From a virus, in the IMG/VR virus record IMGVR_UViG_3300025770_000105, positions 1 through 20,424 of that record: a stretch of DNA of 20,424 bases. The stretch is one strand, 5' to 3'. Position numbers and translations under genes: made by a program. The notes beneath the pieces were generated by a model. The model made no database searches. It was not told the DNA's origin and saw only the letters and a program-made list of their open reading frames with translations. Positions 6,717-14,054 of this stretch are shown here, in pieces; within the stretch, counting starts at the first letter, position 1, and each line of letters opens with the position of its first letter.

Positions 6717-6721
6717 CCTTT

Positions 6722-6795
6722 GCACCTGTAACTCAGTTGGATAGAGTATCGGGTTTCTAACTCGACAGTCGCAGGTTCGAGTCCTGCCAGGTGTG
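6722..6795 (+). tRNA. tRNA-Arg (anticodon UCU)
   Basis: A complete 74-nt cloverleaf. The acceptor stem is GCACCTG/CAGGTGT (first pair G-U), the D arm ACTC...GAGT, the anticodon stem TCGGG/CTCGA with loop TTTCTAA (anticodon TCT at the centre), and the T arm GCAGG-TTCGAGT-CCTGC. The discriminator base is G and no CCA is encoded, so CCA must be added by the host enzyme. It reads AGA, a codon used often in these AT-rich genes. Confidence 0.95.
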
Positions 6796-6814
6796 TTATA
6801 GAAACAAACAAAAA

Positions 6815-7609: not shown

Positions 7610-7828
7610 ATGTGTGAAACATATAATTTGGGCGAAAGTGTAGTACATCGTGGTAGTGGAAAGATGGGCGAAGTCGTTGATGCCGCAGATAGTTCAAAAG
7701 ACGGAACTACTGAATCTATAAAAATTAAATATGAAGATGGTTCAACAGATTGGCATTCTGTGAGTGAAGTTTCTAAAATGCTATACGAAACCGACCCGCC
7801 GATATCAAATAATACTTTATTGGATTAA
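7610..7828 (+). CDS. Small SH3/KOW-like barrel protein
   Basis: A 72-residue protein with AAAGGAGA just before the ATG. GESVVHRGSGKMGEVVDA then ESIKIKYEDGSTDWHSVSEVSKM is the usual two-half pattern of a small SH3-like barrel (a KOW-type loop GKMGEVV followed by a YEDGS hairpin). The function is unknown. Its stop (7826-7828) interlocks with the stop of the opposing gene (7825-7827), and no terminator lies between the two. Confidence 0.75.
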   Translation: MCETYNLGESVVHRGSGKMGEVVDAADSSKDGTTESIKIKYEDGSTDWHSVSEVSKMLYETDPPISNNTLLD

Positions 7829-9543
7829 TATCCACCAGAACTCATTCCACCATTAGATGGTGTACTTGTTCTTGGTGTAGAAGTTCTTATTGGTAATGTC
7901 TCTGAATCTGAATGGGTTTTACCTTTCATGCACCAAGGGGCATCATGGTCACCGTCTGCTGGCATCAAATGATATCCCTCTCGACAACTTCTTTGAGAAG
8001 TGGTAGAAGTTCTTATTGGTAATGTCTCTGAATCTGAATGGGTTTTACCTTTCATGCACCAAGGGGCATCATGGTCACCGTCTGCTGGCATCAAATGATA
8101 TCCCTCTCGACAAGGTTGTTTTTGTGTACTTTGTCTTGGCTGTTTTCTGGTATTGGCAACTTCTATACCACCACCCAATACAGTTCTTTCCTTACACAAA
8201 TATTTTAAAATGTTTTTATTTGTTGGTATTGTAATATAAACATATGCTCCTCTAGTTCCTATCTTTGCTGAAGAACGAACATGACTGCCGGGTTTAAGAC
8301 TTACTCCTTGTTCTCCCATAATAATAAATTCATGGTACATATTTGTAAACCCCTTTATACCGTTTGATATATGAGAAATATTGAACTTATAAGTTTTGCC
8401 TGCATCTAATTCTAATGTGGGTTTTGTTTTTCCGTCAATTACATATGACCAAGAACCTTTACTATCATTTTCTATAGAAACATGGAATGTCTTCTTTCCA
8501 GATTGTTGCCATTTTTCTGTTGCACCCTGAAGACTTGATGATATAGAACTATTAACAGGAGATGTTTTAACAGTAGATGTTTGTGTTGTTTTTCTGTTCT
8601 TTATCGAAGCAAGTGTATCCTTTGCAGACTTTACTAAATCTGATATTTCTTTTGGTTGAGCAGTTCCCGTATCTTTTTTTGGTGACATCAGTGGAGTACT
8701 TGGATTAAATCCACCACCTGCACCACCACCACCTGCACCACCAATTGCAATTGGCAAAGAAGGTCTTCTACTTTTTTCTTCTGTTTCTTCTTTTCTTCTT
8801 CTTAACATAATAAACACTTCACTGCCAAATAAAGTTGTATCTGTAGGGACATCTTCAATTAATTCTATATGTTCCATACCTTCTGCATCGACATAGTATG
8901 AAGAAACCGTATAAGAAGATATACTGCTTCCTACTTTAATGTCCAGTGTATCGTTTGGTTTGACCGTTTTAAATACTGAAGAAAAAGAGTTTGCAGAATG
9001 TTTACCAATACGATTAACTAACTCGTTGATTTGTTCTGTTTTGTTTTCTTGTGTGCTTGATGATGTGGTCCATTTTAAAGAGCCATTAATAAAAAAGTTT
9101 TTGTCGTATCTAGAGTATGTTGAACTTTCATTCTTTACAGAAACTTTAGTAAGCAATGCTATACCTGTGGTGGGATTCCATTTCTCAAATATGTAAGTAC
9201 CAGACAGATTCTTTATTTCTGCATCCCCAAGACCTTCGTTAATAAATTCACCATCGGTTAATGTAAGGGTATCTCCCTTGACTGCTGTTGCTTCAAAGAA
9301 GGTTGTGATTTCATCTTTAATTCTCTTTCTTCCTTTTAGTGCATCACCATAGTCCACTAAAACACTATCACCTTTAAAAAGAATATTAGGATTTACCGAA
9401 AAAGATTCTACGCTGTCAACGATGTCGGATATTCTGGTAACAAAATCGCAACCTATAAAGGATGCCTGACCAACCAATTCCTTTTGTTCGCTTGGTTTTT
9501 TACTTTTTCGTCTAGAATTTCTATTATGAATACTTAACGACAT
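7825..9543 (-). CDS. Multidomain virion structural protein with cupredoxin-like domain and duplicated C-terminal module
   Basis: A 572-residue protein. In order: a basic N-terminus; beta-rich domains to about residue 250; a Gly-rich hinge (268-279); a Ser/Thr linker; a domain at about 351-463 (SWSYVIDGKTKPTLELDAGKTYKFNIS ... ILKYLC ... VLGGGIEV) that follows the plastocyanin-like pattern seen in marine phage structural proteins; then two identical modules beginning CREGYHLMPADGD (478 and 520) with two cysteines each; and a GGMSSGGY end. The cupredoxin copper site is degenerate: the Cys is kept, but the usual following His is missing. It lies 7 nt after the other structural gene (9551-10981), so both probably form one late operon of tail, fibre or capsid-decoration proteins. 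Confidence 0.7.
   Translation of the reverse strand: MSLSIHNRNSRRKSKKPSEQKELVGQASFIGCDFVTRISDIVDSVESFSVNPNILFKGDSVLVDYGDALKGRKRIKDEITTFFEATAVKGDTLTLTDGEFINEGLGDAEIKNLSGTYIFEKWNPTTGIALLTKVSVKNESSTYSRYDKNFFINGSLKWTTSSSTQENKTEQINELVNRIGKHSANSFSSVFKTVKPNDTLDIKVGSSISSYTVSSYYVDAEGMEHIELIEDVPTDTTLFGSEVFIMLRRRKEETEEKSRRPSLPIAIGGAGGGGAGGGFNPSTPLMSPKKDTGTAQPKEISDLVKSAKDTLASIKNRKTTQTSTVKTSPVNSSISSSLQGATEKWQQSGKKTFHVSIENDSKGSWSYVIDGKTKPTLELDAGKTYKFNISHISNGIKGFTNMYHEFIIMGEQGVSLKPGSHVRSSAKIGTRGAYVYITIPTNKNILKYLCKERTVLGGGIEVANTRKQPRQSTQKQPCREGYHLMPADGDHDAPWCMKGKTHSDSETLPIRTSTTSQRSCREGYHLMPADGDHDAPWCMKGKTHSDSETLPIRTSTPRTSTPSNGGMSSGGY
7877..8113 (-). repeat. Perfect 111-bp tandem duplication, period 126 bp
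   Basis: 7877-7987 and 8003-8113 are identical by eye over 111 bases and are separated by 15 different bases. In the protein they give two copies of a 37-residue block with a 42-residue period. Complete identity, including third codon positions, points to a recent duplication or ongoing recombination. Confidence 0.95.
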
Positions 9544-12378: not shown

Positions 12379-13818
12379 TTAACCAAACCCTCTACGCCAT
12401 ATTGGATATTGAGTTTGTAATCCCATAGACTCGGTTGCTTTAGTGCCTCCACCAAAACCTTGAGAGGGACCGTCGCTGCTGTTGTTTCCATTATTAGTCG
12501 TATTATTATTGATAATGGATGGTGGGCCGGGTTGTGATTGTTCTTTATCCCCCGTGGAAGTATTAAGATGTTTTAATTCTGTATTTTCCATTATTGAATC
12601 GGCGTGCAACTGAGATAATGCTTTCTCTTGGTTCTTTACGCGCGAGAGTGCGTATGGCTTGAATGCAATGGCTGGGGATTGTTGGCGTTCACGGCCGACC
12701 AGTCCACGAGTCTGCTCGGCTGCTTTTATCTTTGACACTGGTGTCACTATTTCGTCTTCACCTTTGTCAGCCAGTAAAGCCAATTTCCCACCAAATGTTC
12801 TTGCAACTGGTGAACCTGCCGGTGTGCCTTCACCATATGCAGGTATAGTTTTAGGAACTTGTGCTTTACCAGATAATATTTTATTTACTGTTGACTTATC
12901 TATAGTAAAATATTTATTATTTGTTTTGTTGGTATTGGTATCTGTATTTCTTTCTAGTATATTTGATAATTCTTTATTTGATATATTAGTTTTGTTTATT
13001 GTATAAGATAAAGGGTTTTTATTATTTTTTGTGTTGTTTATTATTGTTGGTAATTCGATATTCTTGTTTTTGGTTATATTGTTATTTTTGGTTATATTGT
13101 TATTTTTATCTACATTCTTGTTTTTGGTTATATTGTTATTTTTGGTTACATTGTTGTTTTTGGTTATATCTCTAAAATTCTGAAATAACATTTTTTTAAT
13201 ATTGTTCTGTACATTTTTTATATTTTTGGTTTCTTTATTATTTGAACTTCTTTCTTTTATTGGTGCTGGAGTTATTACAGTAGGAATTTTAATTTCCTTT
13301 GGAATATTAATTATTCTTTGATTATTTTTAGTATCTGTATGATGCTTCTCTATTGTATTGTTGTTTTTGGTATCTGTTATAGTATCTGTGTGATGCTTCT
13401 CTATTGTCTTGTTATTATTAGTATCTGTGTGATGCTTCTCTATTGTCTTGTTATTATTAATATCTGTGTGATGCTTCTCTATTGTCTTGTTATTATTAAT
13501 ATCTGTGTGATGCTTCTCTATTGTCTTGTTATTATTAGTATCTGTATAATAATGCTTCTCTATTGTCTTTGTGTTGAGATAATCATTTGGTCGGTTGGTA
13601 ATAAATTCTATTTTTTTATTTAATTTTAATATTGCTTCATTAAATTCTGTTGGAATATAATTTTTATTCTTCGGTTGTTCCTGCTTTTCTTTTTCAATTG
13701 GCTTAATTATGTTGGGTATCGGATTTTTATCTTTTGGAACTATATTGACCACACTTCCATTCTTTCTTTTATTGAAATGGGAAATAATATTTTGTTTAAT
13801 TTTCTTTTTATTCTTCAT
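12379..13818 (-). CDS. Tape-measure-like tail protein with Asn/Lys/Thr repeat regions
   Basis: A 479-residue protein with GAGG before its ATG. It has a basic N-terminus, then five to six 13-residue repeats (unit TDxNNNKTIEKHH, residues about 85-165), a second low-complexity block built from NNITKN units (about 220-253), and a complex C-terminal part. In that part, FGGKLALLADKGEDEIVTPVSK (about 343-363) resembles the conserved ALVGEKGPE-type motif near the end of many tape-measure proteins. It follows tail tube and chaperone genes, the usual place of a tape measure (T4 gp29 role). A low-complexity rather than coiled-coil body is unusual, so it may be a different tail-tip protein. Confidence 0.55.
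   Translation of the reverse strand: MKNKKKIKQNIISHFNKRKNGSVVNIVPKDKNPIPNIIKPIEKEKQEQPKNKNYIPTEFNEAILKLNKKIEFITNRPNDYLNTKTIEKHYYTDTNNNKTIEKHHTDINNNKTIEKHHTDINNNKTIEKHHTDTNNNKTIEKHHTDTITDTKNNNTIEKHHTDTKNNQRIINIPKEIKIPTVITPAPIKERSSNNKETKNIKNVQNNIKKMLFQNFRDITKNNNVTKNNNITKNKNVDKNNNITKNNNITKNKNIELPTIINNTKNNKNPLSYTINKTNISNKELSNILERNTDTNTNKTNNKYFTIDKSTVNKILSGKAQVPKTIPAYGEGTPAGSPVARTFGGKLALLADKGEDEIVTPVSKIKAAEQTRGLVGRERQQSPAIAFKPYALSRVKNQEKALSQLHADSIMENTELKHLNTSTGDKEQSQPGPPSIINNNTTNNGNNSSDGPSQGFGGGTKATESMGLQTQYPIWRRGFG
13060..13161 (-). repeat. 18-bp in-frame repeats (NNITKN units)
   Basis: The short unit ttatttttggttatattg and variants repeat about six times, giving TKNNNI/TKNKNV-type hexapeptides. 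It is distinct in sequence and period from the 39-bp repeats further upstream in the same gene. Confidence 0.8.
13321..13566 (-). repeat. 39-bp in-frame tandem repeats in the tape-measure-like gene
   Basis: The unit gtatctgtgtgatgcttctc plus 19 more bases recurs from 13382, 13421, 13460 and 13499 nearly unchanged, with degenerate copies at 13331 and 13538. The period is 39 bp, that is 13 residues, and the copies keep the reading frame. An extra 12 bp separates the first copy. Confidence 0.9.
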
Positions 13819-13823
13819 TTAAT

Positions 13824-14048
13824 TTACCTCGTAATATTTGTTCTTGAACCAGCCCTTTCAGATTCTATGTGTGCTAATTTTATTCTCTCATTCTCTATTT
13901 CTATATATTCAATCAATTGAGCCAAATACACATCTCTTTCCCACGGAATGAGATTTTCTAATTCAGATAGGTTATATTTGTGGTGTTGTACCATCTGGAA
14001 TATTGTTTGGAAGTAATCTTTAAGACTCAGATGGCTGAGTCCTAACCG
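13824..14048 (-). CDS. gp51-like second chaperone domain, reached by -1 frameshift from gp26
   Basis: The frame is open from the gp26 slippery site to the TAA at 13826-13824 and gives 74 residues. Upstream of 13994 it has no ATG, and that ATG has no Shine-Dalgarno. The part YNLSELENLIPWERDVYLAQL is a compact helical motif of the kind found in short second ORFs between a first tail chaperone and the tape measure. In T4, gene 51 follows gene 26, so this is likely its positional counterpart. Made by frameshifting, the fused protein would be 238 residues of gp26 plus these 74, or 312 in all. An independent 56-residue start at 13994 is the alternative. Its end overlaps the ribosome-binding site of the tape-measure-like gene. 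Confidence 0.7.
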   Translation of the reverse strand, partial: RLGLSHLSLKDYFQTIFQMVQHHKYNLSELENLIPWERDVYLAQLIEYIEIENERIKLAHIESERAGSRTNITR

Positions 14049-14054
14049 AAAAAA
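14020..14054 (-). promoter_or_regulatory. Programmed -1 ribosomal frameshift signal
   Basis: On the minus strand, the gp26 frame reads GAT TTT TTC GGT TAG. The heptamer T_TTT_TTC (14054-14048) fits X_XXY_YYZ. Six bases later starts a perfect 7-bp stem, GACTCAG (14041-14035), loop CCAT, CTGAGTC (14030-14024), which extends to 11 pairs (one G-U) if TTAG/TTAA is included. A -1 shift enters exactly the gp51-like frame. Confidence 0.8.

Follow-up and report, generated by a model that had tools for sequence, protein, structure and literature searches.

A probable −1 programmed ribosomal frameshift joining gp26 to a gp51-like extension in a marine T4-like phage

At the 3′ end of the gp26 gene of a marine T4-like phage, a gp51-like reading frame opens in the −1 phase. 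Is it a separate gene, or is it joined to gp26 by ribosomal frameshifting, as the first-pass annotation of this DNA had proposed? In 2004, Xu, Hendrix and Duda reportedly described the G/GT proteins of phage lambda and other −1 frameshifted tail assembly chaperones. The DNA analysed here, hereafter the window, is a 20,424-base IMG/VR virus fragment, and all features relevant to the question lie on its minus strand:

15364-14801, minus strand: tube-type protein gene (gp54/gp19 kind), matching phrog_45, tail tube (E = 1.2e-21)
14761-14042, minus strand: gp26 homologue of 239 aa, the zero-frame product and likely short chaperone form (equivalent of lambda gpG)
14054-14048, minus strand: slippery heptamer T_TTT_TTC, by direct reading in the gp26 phase
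14047-14042, minus strand: 6-nt spacer GGTTAG, including the gp26 stop TAG (14044-14042)
14045-14020, minus strand: putative frameshift stimulator, an 11-bp stem with a CCAT loop (from the fold, a synonymous-codon null and a consensus stem)
14048-13824, minus strand: −1 frame extension of 74 codons and a stop, a gp51-like C-terminal domain (probable equivalent of lambda T)
13818-12379, minus strand: repetitive ORF of 479 aa directly 3′ of the extension, in the tape-measure position (unproven in the window)

Profile searches placed the gp26 homologue in PF12322 (E = 1.1e-58) and phrog_150 (E = 1.6e-62), and its ATG is preceded by GAGG, a Shine-Dalgarno-like motif. Its 3′ codons read TTG TCG GAT TTT TTC GGT TAG, with the heptamer one sense codon before the stop. 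The T_TTT_TTC that had been claimed for the end of gp26 was thus located in the zero-frame phase, where it fits X_XXY_YYZ, the phase required for tandem −1 slippage. Reading after a slip would give FF-RLGLSHLSLKDYFQTIFQMVQHHKY... over 74 codons (14048-13827) up to a stop at 13826-13824, which confirmed the length first given for the open −1 frame. This frame is closed 10 codons upstream of the heptamer. It holds no ATG, GTG or TTG before residue 21, which is an ATG without a Shine-Dalgarno-like motif, in agreement with the earlier statement that the −1 ORF has no ATG with a ribosome-binding site.

We surveyed the junction in 117 loci, belonging to 19 named phages (among them Kyanoviridae, Aeh1 of the Straboviridae, phiM12 and the Rhizobium phage AF3 of the Pootjesviridae) and to 98 IMG/VR contigs. 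Relatives were recruited not by the junction but by gp26 or by the −1 ORF; for the IMG/VR contigs the scans relied on gp26 motifs lying outside it, so that the heptamer was not selected for there. T_TTT_TTN was in phase in all 117 loci (TTC in 105, TTA in 7, TTG in 1 and TTT in 4), eight of them reading FL instead of FF at the slip site. The codon before TTT TTN always ends in T (AGT, TCT, GAT, GCT or AAT in the tallied loci), the zero-frame stop comes 0-2 codons after the heptamer, and the −1 frame is open for 57-74 codons in every relative whose contig reaches the end of the extension. The in-phase heptamer exceeds chance, as NNT-TTT-TTY fits only 31 of the 427 FF dipeptides that lie outside the junction in these loci. 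These loci share ancestry and hence do not amount to 117 independent events; the lineages are deep, the window gp26 being 34-56% identical to that of marine relatives outside its own clade and gp26 identity to the window going down to about 23%. Homology in the −1 frame begins exactly at the slip site across phages of distant hosts (Prochlorococcus, Synechococcus, Pelagibacter, Vibrio, Aeromonas, Sinorhizobium, Ochrobactrum, Rhizobium, Pseudomonas and Cronobacter). The alignment of junctions that the first-pass annotation had called for therefore bore out both the heptamer and the open frame in every surveyed relative, and S13, phi-pp2 and avDM12, read after this survey, carry the heptamer too. 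Relatives lacking it, which had been named beforehand as counter-evidence, were absent from the 117 loci but do occur elsewhere, as T4-type two-gene genomes and as Vibrio phage D509 (L159 1839-2579 onward), whose single PF12322 gene has a −1 extension yet lacks a canonical heptamer. In D509 the extension has an in-frame ATG that shares bases with the gp26 stop (TAATG), an arrangement that suggests termination-reinitiation instead of slipping.

The 6-nt spacer and the perfect 7-bp stem-loop, extendable to 11 pairs, were both recovered where they had been reported. The 7-bp core GACTCAG/CTGAGTC (14041-14035 / 14030-14024) lies 6 nt from the heptamer and the full hairpin TTAGGACTCAG-CCAT-CTGAGTCTTAA (14045-14020; stem arms 14045-14035 / 14030-14020) only 2 nt (GG) from it, the last four spacer bases forming the weak base of the 11-bp stem. 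Its minimum free energy is −20.9 kcal/mol vs −11.3 for dinucleotide shuffles (z −3.75), and none of the 200 shuffles reached so low a value. To assess selection on the RNA, the 51 nt that follow the slip were set against versions of the −1 frame recoded with synonymous codons, a null that preserves the protein. The junction had a mean z of −2.46, with p ≤ 0.05 in 65% of loci, whereas at six control stretches, located in gp26 or deeper in the extension, mean z ranged from −0.48 to +0.15, with 4-13% of loci at p ≤ 0.05. In the close relatives of the window, the hairpin reached z values of −4 to −5 against the same null. Hairpin sequences were clade-specific: GTATGGCTCA...TGAGTCATAC in P-SSM2 relatives, GGACTCTC...GAGAGTC in locus L099 and GACTCAG...CTGAGTC in the window. 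A consensus stem was obtained for six close relatives, in which G-U changes are tolerated; the two most distant of the six break some stem pairs, and the covariation term was slightly unfavourable. Some distant members (Aeh1, ORM_20, Milchi, HTVC008M and AF3) lack a strong hairpin, so the stimulator hairpin is not universal. The conservation of the stem, also part of the proposed alignment, thus held as a junction-specific excess but not in every distant member. In the window, the hairpin is a suitably spaced, putative stimulatory structure.

The −1 ORF matched phrog_634, “baseplate hub assembly catalyst” (E = 8.1e-23, profile positions 56-114 of 121), and weakly also the C-terminal end of phrog_150, indicating that the two profiles cover overlapping stretches of a single longer protein. 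A tblastn search with this ORF recovered 527 phage records, mostly of Synechococcus and Prochlorococcus phages, together with Vibrio, Sinorhizobium, Methylophilales, Pelagibacter and Pseudomonas phages. T4 gp51 (249 aa) aligned with phrog_150 over residues 3-248 and with phrog_634 over residues 147-246; judged by these matches, it is a full-length paralogue of gp26 that continues in frame into the extension. The label “gp51-like” was appropriate in that the −1 ORF matches phrog_634, but the ORF equals only the C-terminal fifth of T4 gp51. Profile matches of both the full short form and the extension place the locus in the T4 gp26/gp51 family (PF12322, phrog_150, phrog_634).

Could the −1 ORF nevertheless be a separate gene, with its own start or translated by termination-reinitiation after the gp26 stop? 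Current cyanophage records assume so and annotate a separate gp51, often starting at an ATG a few bases past the gp26 stop; an ATG does occur within −1 codons 3-14 in 91 of 118 loci (window included), and the TAATG overlap of D509 points the same way. However, a Shine-Dalgarno-like 4-mer precedes none of these 91 candidates, so that the clear separate start regarded from the outset as contrary evidence was not found, and 23 of the 118 loci, the window among them, have no ATG, GTG or TTG at all up to −1 codon 14. No start codon lies upstream of the heptamer in the −1 frame at any of the 118 loci, and the homology starts at the slip site, ahead of any possible start. A separate gene would moreover leave the invariant heptamer and the selected hairpin unexplained, and T4 gp51 is a continuous fusion. 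We rejected an independent start on these grounds, and consider it very unlikely. The extension is unannotated in the published records of S-WAM1, ACG-2014d, S-CAM1, Syn2, Aeh1 and ORM_20.

A fusion could also be produced by slippage of RNA polymerase, not the ribosome, on the T6 run, since every locus of the first survey has a run of at least six T's. A run of six is short for bacterial transcriptional slippage, and this process would require neither the codon phase nor a selected structure just downstream, both of which are seen at the junction; it was rejected on these grounds as extremely improbable. That gp26 and gp51C are the halves of a broken fusion, through sequencing error or gene decay, would account for a frame break where T4 gp51, of the same family, is continuous, but the break is identical, at the same base, in 117 contigs and genomes, including separately assembled contigs of the window phage and its close kin (L002-L005), and the extension is intact wherever its end is reached. 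The conservation of the break refutes this explanation, whose probability is close to nil. We consider −1 programmed ribosomal frameshifting in the window gp26 to be highly likely, the claimed joining to a gp51-like ORF being supported by phase, conservation, RNA structure and homology.

Taking sequence, phase, conservation, RNA structure, homology and copy number as observed, we infer the slip itself, its efficiency and the roles of the proteins as follows. One gene would give rise to two tail assembly chaperones. Most ribosomes would terminate at the gp26 stop and release the 239-aa short form; a minority would re-pair in tandem on T_TTT_TTC and move back one base, aided by the hairpin beginning 2-6 nt downstream, and would then translate 74 further codons, the product being a gp26-gp51C fusion of 312 aa. 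On the model of lambda G/GT, the N-terminal part common to both forms would coat the tape measure protein and the rare extension would bring in tube subunits; the proportion of the two forms fixed by the slip would therefore matter.

Homology and synteny make a chaperone role of gp26 and gp26-gp51C likely. T4 gp26 and gp51 appear as hub assembly chaperones in PMC3004832, according to which gp51 is essential but not present in the final particle. Two products are indicated by the conserved −1 extension and by the fused paralogue gp51 of T4. The proposed gene order of tube, chaperone pair and tape measure stood on its upstream side, where the tube-type gene is the expected client and neighbour, but the downstream ORF is tape-measure-like by position only: with hmmscan, the ORF downstream of the chaperone pair gave no match to a tape measure family in the window, in L006 or in P-SSM2. 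ORFs syntenic to 12379-13818 are tape-measure-like in HTVC008M (E = 8e-12) and phiM12 (E = 2e-5), in which the chaperone locus lies between the tube-type gene and the tape-measure gene. By position, the locus of the window has the same arrangement, with a downstream ORF lacking a family match. That ORF contains tandem repeats of 18, 39 and 51 nt at 13058-13569, with the peptide repeat KTIEKHHTDxNNN.

Confident AlphaFold2 models were obtained for gp26 (pLDDT 89.7) and for a T4-type gp51 (pLDDT 94.3). Foldseek found no significant match to gp26 among 350,542 chains; two tail assembly chaperones, HK97 gp13 (2ob9; rank 5, E = 0.99, probability 0.30) and 3fgx (rank 7, E = 1.3, probability 0.66), the latter named as such in PMC9603447, were among the non-significant ones. 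The predicted likeness of gp26 to solved tail assembly chaperones is thus weak and suggestive only. The best 50 matches listed for the gp51 model included no chaperone, and a sequence search of the PDB with the gp26 and gp51 profiles returned nothing relevant.

How, then, does T4 itself express the two forms? We found two PF12322 genes in each of ten T4/RB49/pseudoT-even-type genomes (T4, JSE, CfP1 and seven T4-type IMG/VR genomes) and one in each of 21 other records, which include the Straboviridae Aeh1, avDM12, S13 and phi-pp2. One two-gene genome (G006) gave three matches, its gp51 being broken. The heptamer was absent from the T4-type gp26 tails read by codon (T4, JSE, CfP1 and those IMG/VR genomes read in this way) and is carried by the single-gene phages, Vibrio phage D509 excepted. 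T4 gp26 stops where its relatives slip, and its equivalent of FF is coded GAG TTC TTT, the gene ending GAG TTC TTT GAG. In the maximum-likelihood tree, which does not fix the root, one branch (99/96) divides duplicated from single genes and gp51 forms one group (100/95). The simplest account would start from a frameshift gene in the ancestor, duplicated once in the lineage of T4, a polarity that we infer. In the T4, RB49 and pseudoT-even lineages, gene 26 would have kept the short form and lost the slip site, and gene 51 would encode the long form as a continuous frame. T4 gp26 would then correspond to the short form of the window and T4 gp51 to the long form including the extension; in T4 the two genes lie on opposite strands, a slip site is absent and a frameshift is unnecessary, whereas the window has one gene with a slip site. 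In Citrobacter phage CfP1 (L155 2501-3794), unlike in T4, the same strand carries both gp51 and gp26, arranged in tandem and overlapping by 8 nt. In IMGVR_UViG_2974754850 (L145 2501-3246), the gp51 frame is broken at about residue 120 and not at the slip site, by sequencing error or mutation.

A joint reading, in which a single phage supergroup uses several modes of expression at this locus, seems to us unlikely. The modes would be a −1 frameshift with a fast-evolving hairpin in most phages, a slip site without an evident hairpin, possibly termination-reinitiation in D509 (TAATG) and, in T4, duplication into a short and a fused gene. Cyanophages with an ATG just past the stop may combine frameshifting and reinitiation, which would yield a third, free gp51C product.

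As in lambda G/GT, the locus lies near the tube and tape measure genes and would specify a short and a rarer long form through a −1 slip near the 3′ end, with a short C-terminal extension. It differs from the lambda G/GT families in its poly-T heptamer and in its gp26 (PF12322) protein family, and we found no sequence similarity to those families. The −1 slip on a GTTTTT motif at the chaperone locus of Vandenendeviridae and Andersonviridae (PMC12846349) is also poly-T, at the end of the short-form gene and followed by an open −1 extension; motif and phage families differ, and the likeness drawn here is one of locus features. As relayed by PMC10885494 and PMC12846349, the chaperones for tail assembly in T4-like phages were identified in 2022 by Vladimirov, Gautam & Davidson (Virology 566:9-15), with a poly-T −1 signal inside the gene of the short form; some of these phages have one gene for the short form and a separate one for the fused long form. 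From what is relayed, their phages are of a different lineage from the window and share with it the short and long forms and the poly-T signal. The unification of T4 gp26/gp51 with the tail assembly chaperones, put forward for the window as a consequence, is therefore supported but not new: the central idea of a frameshifted chaperone in T4-like phages was published in 2022, and the window is a well-supported further example. Our analysis adds a new lineage, the breadth of conservation, a junction-specific RNA test, the association with copy number and the D509 exception; the 2022 study may or may not already contain the hairpin null test, the copy-number table and D509. The annotation would be corrected for hundreds of cyanophage and other T4-like genomes in which gp51 is called as separate or missed, and the long-puzzling hub chaperones gp26 and gp51 of T4 would be explained as a single chaperone whose short and long forms became separate genes by duplication. 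The family offers a natural comparison between frameshifting and gene duplication as means of setting a protein ratio.

Elsewhere in the window, a 126-bp unit is repeated 1.9 times without mismatch at 7877-8113, within a 572-aa ORF (7825-9543, minus strand), reflecting a recent duplication or an assembly effect, and a tRNA-Arg (TCT) gene lies on the plus strand at 6721-6796.
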